Origin: Pseudomonas fluorescens
Lineage (GTDB): Bacteria; Pseudomonadota; Gammaproteobacteria; Pseudomonadales; Pseudomonadaceae
Direction: 5' to 3'
Length of the DNA stretch: 64,000 nt
Assembly: GCF_000968015.1 (NCBI RefSeq)
Contig: NZ_LACH01000014.1
Coordinates: 109,582-173,581 of the forward strand
In this document: one piece after another, positions 28,254-62,587 of the stretch
Layout of the letters: every line of letters starts with the position of its first letter
Position numbering within the stretch: position 1 is the stretch's first letter
The notes under the pieces: model-generated
What the model was told of the DNA's origin: nothing
What the model saw: the letters and a program-made list of their open reading frames with translations, nothing else
The model's database searches: none
Position numbers and translations under genes: made by a program

Positions 28254-28506
28254 GGCGCGGTTTAAAGGAAAACCCTTACAGAACTGAGATTTAGGAGCGT
28301 ATTAGGAGGGGCAAGGAGAATCAGACGTGTCATCCCGCTCAATAACTTGAACCAGCACTGATGGCTGCGCTCGAAAGTTAAAGTAGTTTATTAAGAGTAA
28401 GATTTTTTCGGTATTACGAAAGTGCTTCTGCCGACGATTGTGTAAGGAGGGAAATTGCCATCACCAACGCCCTGCTCAATGATTTAAGCAGAGGAGAGAA
28501 AAAAGG

Positions 28507-28860
28507 TGGAGAGTCGATCTGTAAGCCGGGTTCTGTCTTGAACAGTCATTCGTCTACGATGGCCATCACTGGACATCTTTAGCAACCTACCCGGTCCCAG
28601 CGCGGGCCACGCCTTGGGACCCTATTTGGTCTTGCTCCAAGTGGGGTTTACCTAGCCACGAACTGTTGCCAGTCGCGCGGTGCGCTCTTACCGCACCTTT
28701 TCACCCTTACCGGCGCCGAAGCGCTTAGGCGGTTATTTTCTGTGGCACTTTCCGTAGGCTCACGCCTCCCAGGCATTACCTGGCACTTCGCCCTATGGAG
28801 CCCGGACTTTCCTCCCCCCCCTAATTCTCATAGAGGGCAGCGACTGTCCGATCGACTCTC
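28507..28860 (-). ncRNA. rnpB: RNase P RNA, bacterial type A
   Basis: This is the catalytic RNA for tRNA 5' maturation, about 354 nt. The minus-strand 5' end AGAGTCGATCGGACAG pairs with the 3' end (GATCGACTCT) as helix P1. The universal 5' core GAGGAAAGTCCGGGCTCC lies near 28795-28812. The universal 3' part (ACAGAACCCGGCTTACAGAT) lies near 28518-28537. Ends are estimated to within a few bases. A run of Ts follows the 3' end, and further down sits CTCTGCTTAAATCATTGAGCAG, a possible extra terminator hairpin. Confidence 0.97.
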
Positions 28861-60580: not shown

Positions 60581-61579
60581 ATGGATCCGCGCAGTGAAGT
60601 ACTGCTTCGTCAGGCCGAGTTATTCCAGGGTTCGGTGCTGCTGGCCGGTTTGCCCGCCGATGACCTGCTGGGCCGTCTGCCCGATGCTCATGGCTGGTGC
60701 TGGCATGCCGGCGATCAAGCAGCGCTGGATGCCCGCTTCGCCGAGCGCAGCCATTTCGGTGTGAATGCACCGGAGCGCGCGTTCGACATCGCCGTGGTGT
60801 TTCTGCCCAAATCCAAGGACCTGACCGACTACATCCTCAACGCCCTCGCCTCCAGACTGGCCGGTCGTGAACTGTATCTGGTGGGTGAAAAACGCAGCGG
60901 CATCGAAGGCGCGGCCAAGCAACTGAACCCCTTCGGCAAACCGCGCAAACTCGACAGCGCGCGGCATTGCCAGCTGTGGCAGGTAACCGTGGCCACGGCG
61001 CCAGAAGCCAAATCGCTGGAAAGCCTGGCCCAGACTTATGAATTGCCGCTGGCCGAAGGTCCGCTAAAAGTCATCAGCCTGCCGGGCGTGTTCAGCCACG
61101 GTCGGCTGGATCGCGGCAGCGCGCTGTTGCTGGAACATTTGGACAAATTGCCGAGCGGCCATTTGCTGGACTTCGGTTGCGGCGCCGGTGTGTTGGGAGC
61201 GGCCGTGAAACGTCGCTATCCACACAACCAGGTCACCTTGCTGGATGTGGATGCCTTTGCCGCCGCCAGCAGTCGCCTGACATTGGCTGCCAACGGTCTG
61301 GAAGCTGACGTGATTACCGGTGACGGTATCGACGCCGCACCGATGGGTCTGAGTGCGATTCTGAGCAATCCACCGTTCCATGTCGGGGTTCACACAGACT
61401 ACTTCGCTACCGAGAACTTGCTGCGAAAAGCCGCCAAACATCTAAAAAATGGTGGCGAACTTCGCTTGGTGGCGAACAGCTTCCTGAAGTATCAGCCGCT
61501 GATCGAGGAGCATCTGGGCGTGTGTGCGATCAAGGCTGAAGGACAGGGTTTCAGGATCTACCGAGCCAAACGCGGCTAG
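60581..61579 (+). CDS. rsmC: 16S rRNA (guanine1207-N2)-methyltransferase
   Basis: This 332-residue protein has duplicated methyltransferase halves. The N-terminal half lacks a SAM site. The C-terminal half has [18 protein letters not shown] and the N2-guanine catalytic motif [10 protein letters not shown], then [13 protein letters not shown]. RsmC modifies 30S subunits, whereas the related RlmG acts on 23S rRNA; length and sequence favour RsmC. ATG 60581 follows CAGGAGCAGAGT. Confidence 0.92.
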
Positions 61580-61581
61580 AA

Positions 61582-61599
61582 CCTCTTTTAAAAAAGAGG
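61582..61599 (+). terminator. Weak terminator-like hairpin after rsmC
   Basis: CCTCTTTT-TAA-AAAAGAGG-type pairing immediately after the stop codon; there is no good T-run, so it may act poorly. Confidence 0.4.
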
Positions 61600-61600
61600 C

Positions 61601-61629
61601 TTGCCCAATCGAATTTGCCTAGGCAGAAT
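61601..61629 (+). promoter_or_regulatory. Candidate promoter of the riboswitch transcript
   Basis: TTGCCC (61601-61606), a 17-nt spacer and CAGAAT (61624-61629) predict a start near 61636, exactly one base before the riboswitch P1 stem. Confidence 0.6.
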
Positions 61630-61636
61630 CCGCTCC

Positions 61637-61834
61637 GTCCTAGGGGAGTAGTCTCCCACGAGCGCCATGCTCGTCCGGCATACGTCAACATACTTGGTCA
61701 ACAGACCATGGCGTATGCGACCCAAGCGTCCGCATCAGACGGATCGCAGGGTTTGACAAGACCTATGACACGAACACCTTACCCGGGGCGGGAAGGCTGT
61801 ACGTGTCATAGCCGTGTCGACCCGCCCCTTAGGA
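61637..61834 (+). promoter_or_regulatory. yybP-ykoY (manganese) riboswitch
   Basis: The aptamer at 61637-61769 carries the L1 motif GGGGAGTAG (61643-61651) and the L3 motif ACAAGACC (61756-61763). P1 is GTCCTAGG (61637-61644) with CCTATGAC (61762-61769). ACGAGC-GCCAT-GCTCGT and GCATACG...CGTATGC form internal helices. Downstream, CTATGACACG (61763-61772) can pair with CGTGTCATAG (61802-61811), and TCCTAGG (61638-61644) with CTTAGGA (61828-61834), the ribosome binding site. This class is known to sense Mn2+ and controls Mn exporters. Confidence 0.9.
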
Positions 61835-61842
61835 AAACCCTG

Positions 61843-62427
61843 ATGCTGGATTCACTTCTCGTTCCCACCGCAATCGTTGCCTTGGCCGAAATCGGCGACA
61901 AGACGCAACTGCTCGCGCTCATTCTTGCCGCTCGCTTTCGCAAACCCTGGCCGATCATCGCCGGTATCGTCGCTGCAACCCTGGCCAACCATGCGGCAGC
62001 CGGTGCGGTAGGCGCCTGGGTCGGTAGTTTCTTCTCGAATGCGACGCTGCACTGGATCCTCGCCGTGAGCTTCACCGCGACCGCATTGTGGACCTTGGTG
62101 CCGGACAAGATGGATGACGACGAAGCCAGCACCGCCCGCAAGTTCGGACCGTTCCTGACCACGTTGATCGCGTTTTTCCTTGCGGAGATGGGCGACAAGA
62201 CTCAAGTCGCCACGGTGATGCTCGCGGCGCAATACCCGGAACTGTGGCTGGTAATCATCGGCACTACCGCCGGCATGTTGATTGCCAACGTGCCAGTGGT
62301 TTTGGCGGGTAACTTTGCCGCGGATAAATTGCCGTTGACCCTGATCCGTCGCCTGGCGGCGTCGGCGTTCTTCATCCTCGCCATTGTCGCGGTGTACAAG
62401 GCGATGCAGAGCAGCGGCTGGGTTTGA
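61843..62427 (+). CDS. TMEM165/GDT1 (UPF0016) cation transporter, probable Mn exporter
   Basis: This 194-residue protein has six membrane segments in two repeats, each with the family motif E-x-G-D-K-T (EIGDKTQ at 16-22, EMGDKTQ near 115-121). Bacterial relatives export Mn2+ (MneA/MntX) and the upstream manganese riboswitch supports that role here. AGGA (61831-61834) lies eight bases before the ATG. The long upstream open frame covers the riboswitch and is not coding. Confidence 0.92.
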   Translation: MLDSLLVPTAIVALAEIGDKTQLLALILAARFRKPWPIIAGIVAATLANHAAAGAVGAWVGSFFSNATLHWILAVSFTATALWTLVPDKMDDDEASTARKFGPFLTTLIAFFLAEMGDKTQVATVMLAAQYPELWLVIIGTTAGMLIANVPVVLAGNFAADKLPLTLIRRLAASAFFILAIVAVYKAMQSSGWV

Positions 62428-62459: not shown

Positions 62460-62559
62460 TCGTCGGAACGCCGCCCGGAGCAAGCACGCTCCCACAGGGG
62501 TCAGTGTCGATCACAAAACCAATGTGGGAGCGAGCTTGCTCCGGGCGGCGTTCCGACGA
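62460..62559. repeat. Inverted REP pair after the TMEM165 gene
   Basis: TCGTCGGAACGCCGCCCGGAGCAAG-type and its complement CTTGCTCCGGGCGGCGTTCCGACGA flank GCTCCCACA / TGTGGGAGCGAGC cores. Compared with the other pairs, the outer part reads CGCCGCCCGGAGC, a distinct variant. Confidence 0.88.
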
Positions 62560-62587
62560 GGGCGTCAGCAGCCGCGCAACATGACTA

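Follow-up and report, generated by a model that had tools for sequence, protein, structure and literature searches.

A candidate pseudoknot at the Shine-Dalgarno sequence of manganese riboswitches upstream of GDT1 and other transporter genes

The leader of a GDT1/UPF0016 cation exporter gene in the window, by which we mean the whole 64,000-nucleotide stretch of Pseudomonas fluorescens DNA that was analysed, is on sequence evidence a true yybP-ykoY Mn2+ riboswitch. We moderately favour a model in which Mn2+ turns the gene on, mainly at the level of translation, and in which two helices, S1 and S2, form a pseudoknot at the Shine-Dalgarno (SD) sequence in the OFF state. In the absence of Mn2+, the anti-P1 helix S1 would displace the weak P1 helix, and the S1/P5b stem-loop would present GGGGCGGG in its loop for pairing (S2) with CCCGCCCC just 5' of the SD. 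Together, S1 and S2 would make up an H-type pseudoknot and so keep the 30S subunit from binding, while the P1 5' strand (UCCUA), once released, could in Pseudomonas additionally pair with the SD (UAGGA). With Mn2+ present, the aptamer would lock P1, so that S1 could not form, the pseudoknot would be lost and the SD would open. This last step is modelled on published work on P1.1: in the available part of PMC6754395, Mn2+ stabilises P1.1 of the Xanthomonas oryzae aptamer against an invading strand. The ribosome-binding site (RBS) of Escherichia coli mntP is closed without Mn, as described in the accessible portion of PMC11647493. We infer the assignment of the competing pairings to the ON and OFF states, and likewise the action of S2 in the OFF state and its joint formation with S1 in the way of the ribosome.

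The preliminary description of this DNA had proposed a manganese riboswitch and suggested a covariance search against Rfam RF00080, which, once run, returned a match above the gathering threshold (Table 1). At E <= 0.001 this + strand copy is the only one in the whole genome. Both GGGGAGUAG and CAACAUACUUGG, whose letters we take to be the defining core of RF00080, are present in the alignment of the window to the family. A metal-transport membrane protein, the GDT1 product (PF01169), is encoded after the riboswitch; its gene contains two repeats within one frame, and is the one GDT1 gene found in this genome. Besides the aptamer, a scan of 61600-61900 gave no more than chance-level hits to two microRNA families, and a second Rfam family in the expression platform was rejected. 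In overlapping samples of genomes, RF00080 was matched in 295 of 298 at the genus level, 194 of 198 at the family level, 24 of 369 at the class level and 129 of 398 at the phylum level. According to the available part of PMC7380456, a UPF0016 gene lies under a yybP-ykoY riboswitch in 328 of the 333 strains that carry such a gene. Some genomes of the genus carry a second RF00080 copy; the copies in L006, L008 and L022 (numbering of the leaders compared below) precede MntP-like genes and that in L001 lies ahead of a Na_Ca_ex gene. Read in the GDT1 frame, the leader itself (61615-61842) stays open from TTG 61615, and automatic annotation may thus give the protein a spuriously long N-terminus that runs across the riboswitch.

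Table 1. Positions, in window coordinates, of the riboswitch, its candidate pairing strands and the downstream gene
Feature	Letters	Position	Strand	Remark
yybP-ykoY Mn2+ riboswitch aptamer (RF00080)		61630-61754	+	cmscan 55.2 bits, gathering 45, E 7.3e-12
P1 5' strand	GTCCTAGG	61637-61644	+	switch helix; candidate anti-SD strand when free; read from sequence
P1 3' strand	CCTATGAC	61762-61769	+	overlaps anti-P1 5' strand; read from sequence
S1 (anti-P1) 5' strand	CTATGACACG	61763-61772	+	covariation
P5b 5' strand	CCTT	61777-61780	+	pairs with 61793-61796; S2 5' strand in P5b loop
S2 5' strand	GGGGCGGG	61785-61792	+	apical loop
P5b 3' strand	AAGG	61793-61796	+	0 nt after S2 5' strand
S1 (anti-P1) 3' strand	CGTGTCATAG	61802-61811	+	covariation
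Loop 3 of proposed pseudoknot		61812-61820	+	9 nt, between S1 and S2
S2 3' strand	CCCGCCCC	61821-61828	+	directly 5' of SD
Anti-SD helix partner	CCCUUAGGA	61826-61834	+	pairs with P1 5' strand UCCUAGGGG, 61638-61646
Shine-Dalgarno	TAGGA	61830-61834	+	8 nt 5' of ATG 61843
GDT1/UPF0016 cation exporter gene		61843-62427	+	194 aa; Pfam PF01169 143.3 bits, E 2.9e-42

Every strand that had been listed at the outset for P1, the anti-P1 hairpin, the anti-SD pairing and an extra pairing lies at its assigned coordinates. The P1 helix, however, comprises seven standard pairs out of eight, its C61640.U61766 mismatch having gone unmentioned, whereas all ten pairs of S1 and all eight of S2 can form. Because P1 and S1 use the common strand 61763-61769, they must compete, and at the level of predicted pairings they are shown to exclude each other. 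The anti-SD helix (61638-61644 with 61828-61834) contains one G.U pair and can be extended to the nine pairs listed in Table 1, and the gap between the P5b and S2 5' strands is 4 nt. Region 61762-61845 folds more stably than its shuffled versions (z = -3.54; none of 200 shuffles was as stable). Within 61829-61842, UUAGG can also pair with CCUGA just 5' of the ATG; CCTG in this place recurs in many Pseudomonas-type leaders and could belong to a small local SD hairpin.

For the comparison of related leaders we used 276 sequences (the window and L001-L275), of which 241 gave a leader with P1 and 35 gave none. Clustering at 85% ungapped identity reduced the 241 leaders to 136 clusters; L178 is the window itself and collapses into the window's cluster. 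S1 was significant (p <= 0.05) in 91 clusters, the 45 others (p > 0.05) being outside the main test, for which the E. coli leaders L187 and L188 were also removed, leaving 89 clusters. Alignment A1 holds 69 of these, chosen by eye and aligned with MAFFT on sequence only. Rows of A2 (28) and A3 (31) were chosen by P1 and S2 type, and their paired percentages therefore lean towards structure; all three alignments take the 3' limits of their rows from the S2 that had been detected. The main tests limited the S2 3' strand to 6-26 nt after S1, so that loop 3 is at least 6 nt there, and only pairings of the S1 loop with the tail were considered for S2, which makes its interleaved position, though not its strength, a product of construction. 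The swap and shuffle nulls behind all S1 and S2 excess figures ignore phylogeny. One leader (L086) comes from a metagenome-assembled genome labelled Chitinophaga, and the labels Pseudomonas and Enterobacterales for sampled leaders were given through named relatives.

The anti-P1 hairpin of the preliminary description gained strong covariation from this comparison. In A1, 88.2% of S1 cells are paired, a figure biased upward because S1 was a selection criterion, and nine of the ten pairs have changed on both sides. The stronger point is the three columns beyond P1 (9-11), where pairs vary among AU, CG, UA and GC and where 30, 41 and 38 cells, respectively, carry double changes. Within the groups, the paired share of S1 cells is 94.8% for 31 rows, 98.0% for 28 rows and 80.5% for the 33 mntP rows. 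The joint covariation score of S1 and S2 in A1 was 0.368 versus 0.141 after shuffling, which ignores phylogeny, and none of 500 shuffles reached it. By the standard of such comparative sequence data, S1 and S2 are shown to be kept by compensating changes in relatives.

The pairing of GGGGCGGG with CCCGCCCC, originally mentioned as extra and as a possible pseudoknot, turned out to be widely kept. Across the 89 clusters, S2 reached at least 6 bp in all (mean 53.7, maximum 65 in 300 tail swaps that ignore phylogeny) and at least 7 bp in 82 (mean 35.5, maximum 47 in the same kind of swaps), with a mean score of 22.9 against 15.96 for swaps (sd 0.42). Taken cluster by cluster, 71 of 91 had p <= 0.05 against shuffles, leaving one in five above that level; of the 45 clusters without significant S1, 28 had S2 at p <= 0.05. 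We counted 63 distinct S2 strands, among them GGGGCGGG, GGCCGG, GAGGGCGGG, GATCGGGC (before mntP) and GCCGAGCTT. In several relatives S2 spans 12-15 bp with wobbles counted (15 bp in L257), and could hardly be switched off there. On the mixed alignment A1, 67.1% of S2 cells are paired with a register that differs between groups, and S2 was therefore recounted per group, giving 85.0% (31 rows), 82.1% (28 rows) and 90.5% (33 mntP leaders). Inside any one group, few S2 pairs have changed on both sides (2 of 8, 5 of 9 and 2 of 7, respectively), and contrasts between groups supply most of the support for S2.

The geometry around S2 also fits a pseudoknot. A P5b stem with a 0-nt junction to S2 and 3-7 nt on the other side was found in 63 of the 89 clusters, compared with a mean of 18.8 and a maximum of 33 in swaps; of the 76 clusters whose P5b reaches 3 bp or more, 67 have a 0-nt junction. 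In an unrestricted search, loop 3 measured 8-14 nt in 79 of 91 clusters (87%, versus 17% with shuffled tails), was at least 7 nt in 89 and was shorter in 2. By our own A-form estimate, about 8 nt would be enough to bridge some 16 bp of stem, which would let S1 and S2 coexist. Loop 3 correlates negatively with S1 length (-0.18) and weakly positively with stem length including the inner stretch (rho 0.24, uncorrected p 0.025). In 82 of 89 clusters an SD-like motif begins between -3 and +7 nt from the S2 end, and in eight it overlaps S2; the search covered -4 to +14, accepted weak three-letter motifs and left seven clusters without one. The leader would accordingly combine the features of an H-type pseudoknot, namely two interleaved helices that each covary, suitable loop lengths and a short junction, with the proviso that double changes of S2 within groups are few and that its interleaved place was set by the search. 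Being kept, adjoining the SD and flanked by a stem with H-type spacing, S2 looks like a core part of the switch and not an extra.

Folding calculations bear on a second reading, which we consider possible and clearly less probable, namely that S2 is a nested ON-state hairpin or is always formed, and that the P1 5' strand alone blocks the SD in the OFF state. The S2 loop would then hold the anti-P1 3' strand while the C-rich strand is kept off the SD, and the OFF state would be as first drawn, with a long S1/P5 hairpin holding the G strand. Indeed, the minimum fold of the whole leader (ViennaRNA) contains S1, an extended P5 that occupies part of the S2 5' strand, and the anti-SD helix of the P1 5' strand on CCCUUAGGA, with no S2, while the part after P1 folds S2 when taken alone. 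Pseudoknot-free folding places S2 as a nested hairpin in the ON ensemble with a mean probability of 0.71 (82 clusters) and 1.0 in the window; being present there too, S2 may be constitutive or belong to the ON state. In the same pseudoknot-free calculations SD accessibility separates the two states poorly, at 0.27 (ON) versus 0.19 (OFF) on average and 0.26 versus 0.07 in the window. Against this reading, the 0-nt P5b junction and the 8-14 nt of loop 3 suit the co-formation of S1 and S2, and the GGAGG ahead of the L176 gene is part of S2.

The same reading depends on the pairing of the P1 5' strand with the SD. In GTCCTAGG-type leaders this strand can form five to nine base pairs with the SD in most of the 14 clusters, L100 and L151 being without such pairing. 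Of the 51 distinct GTCCTAGG-type tails with AGGA found by the pattern, 50 have a T in front of it, while the preceding bases vary. The other 12 of the 63 tails were listed without AGGA, one of them (TCTTAGGA) wrongly, since it contains an AGGA that escaped the pattern; the background is drawn from no more than 12 ORFs, all in the window, one of which has T. Azotobacter leader L075 carries a matching double change, TCCTG/CAGGA, which is absent in L072, L077 and L180. In the OFF ensemble without pseudoknots, pairing of the SD with the P1 5' region has a probability of 0.84 in the window and a mean of 0.38 over the 14 GTCCTAGG clusters. Over all clusters, the anti-SD score is slightly above the swap null (12.99 versus 12.04, sd 0.24). 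In 22 GTCATTGG-type clusters, however, it falls below that null (10.3 versus 12.0), and these leaders keep S1 and S2; if the P1 5' strand were the only block, the blocking step would be missing there. The anti-SD step of the initial model thus holds up strongly for GTCCTAGG-type leaders and was rejected as a general role. As a general blocking step it is unlikely; given the low GTCATTGG-type score and the slight overall excess, it looks like a lineage add-on of GTCCTAGG-type (Pseudomonas-like) leaders.

Our pseudoknot model assumes control of translation. A simple scan of 61540-61900 found no intrinsic terminator, and intrinsic termination was rejected on this result; with the SD in a competing pairing, the leader is predicted to be a translational riboswitch. 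It is improbable, in our estimate, that control runs mainly through Rho-dependent termination or mRNA stability and that the SD pairings only modulate it. Such control has precedents, since Rho regulates E. coli mntP in the available part of PMC11647493, and the corresponding part of PMC13274385 reports for Vibrio parahaemolyticus that mneA and terC mRNA rise with Mn, with no drop in riboswitch coverage. Against it, termination or decay alone needs no S2 positioned at an SD-like motif, as seen in 82 of 89 clusters; the empty terminator scan is uninformative on Rho. Chance complementarity of S2 and the anti-SD strands in GC-rich DNA with SD purines is the least credible explanation by far and was rejected for S2, because, easily as SD and C-rich strands pair even among swapped partners, the excess at 7 bp or more (82 of 89 versus 35.5, in swaps that ignore phylogeny) and the diversity of S2 sequences such as GCCGAGCTT/AAGCTCGGC and GATCGGGC/GCCCGATC speak against it.

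The order of S1 and S2 recurs upstream of GDT1, MntP and Na_Ca_ex genes, named by Pfam for two MntP (PF02659) and five Na_Ca_ex (PF01699) proteins and by motif for the others. We give roughly even weight to the proposal that proteobacterial Mn2+ riboswitches ahead of GDT1/MneA, MntP and Na/Ca-exchanger-like genes, E. coli mntP and perhaps alx among them, share an undescribed platform, in which the anti-P1 loop would pair just 5' of the SD and loss of Mn2+ would build a pseudoknot on the RBS. Thirty-three mntP leaders from one family sample, that of E. coli K-12 mntP (L187) included, align with a common S1/S2. In the automatic search the S2 of L187, whose S1 loop contains a long insert, was not significant (p 0.27); aligned with its relatives, E. 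coli mntP fits the scheme. For E. coli alx (L188), the automatic search returned an S1-like helix of 9 bp (p 0.02) and an S2-like one of 13 bp (p 0.00), the latter, TATGCATAAAAAG/TTTTTTATGTGTA, ending immediately 5' of AGGA. Inspected by eye, the S1-like helix meets only the P1 end and strong local hairpins in the loop compete, and the membership of alx is ambiguous.

Several other riboswitches resemble the window's leader. It shares with the translational E. coli mntP switch the aptamer family, the P1 switch helix, an exporter gene and, judged by alignment with relatives, the order of S1 and S2 at the SD. Unlike mntP, it precedes a GDT1 gene rather than MntP, Pseudomonas adds the pairing of the P1 5' strand with the SD, and it is E. 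coli mntP that has an insert in the S1 loop and an S2 that was not significant in the automatic search. With E. coli alx it has the aptamer family in common. As in the X. oryzae yybP-ykoY switch, P1.1 stabilised by Mn2+ would face a downstream invading strand; that switch is treated in the available part of PMC6754395 as transcriptional, with a terminator as the invader, whereas here there is no terminator in the scanned region and the platform extends to the SD. Control of initiation by an SD pseudoknot is also the principle of preQ1-type translational riboswitches. There, ligand binding creates the pseudoknot within the aptamer and switches the gene off; here, in contrast, the pseudoknot would lie outside the aptamer and the ligand would prevent it.

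The aptamer structure of the very common yybP-ykoY riboswitch has been solved. The class is known, and the S1/S2 platform looks undescribed: a literature search at the level of titles and abstract openings found no pseudoknot in the yybP-ykoY platform, and in the available part of PMC11647493 the translational OFF state is described only as an inaccessible RBS. Pairings kept with changed letters suggest how manganese may turn an exporter gene on, and a conserved pairing scheme that also fits the experimentally used E. coli mntP leader offers specific mutations and a testable switching step.

Some further features were noted among the relatives and elsewhere in the window. In L131-L146 and L149, an upstream ORF of 16-19 codons, starting with GTG or ATG, follows the SD of the riboswitch and runs with its TGA into the ATG of a Na_Ca_ex-like gene; the pattern is present in 16 of 17 loci and suggests translational coupling (Pfam was run on L132 and L136 of this set, both Na_Ca_ex). 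Downstream of the GDT1 gene in the window, 62460-62562 holds a long inverted repeat of TCGTCGGAACGCCGCCCGGAGCAAGC and its complement, resembling a Pseudomonas REP pair. An RNase P RNA gene (RF00010, 335.9 bits) lies on the - strand at 28506-28859.
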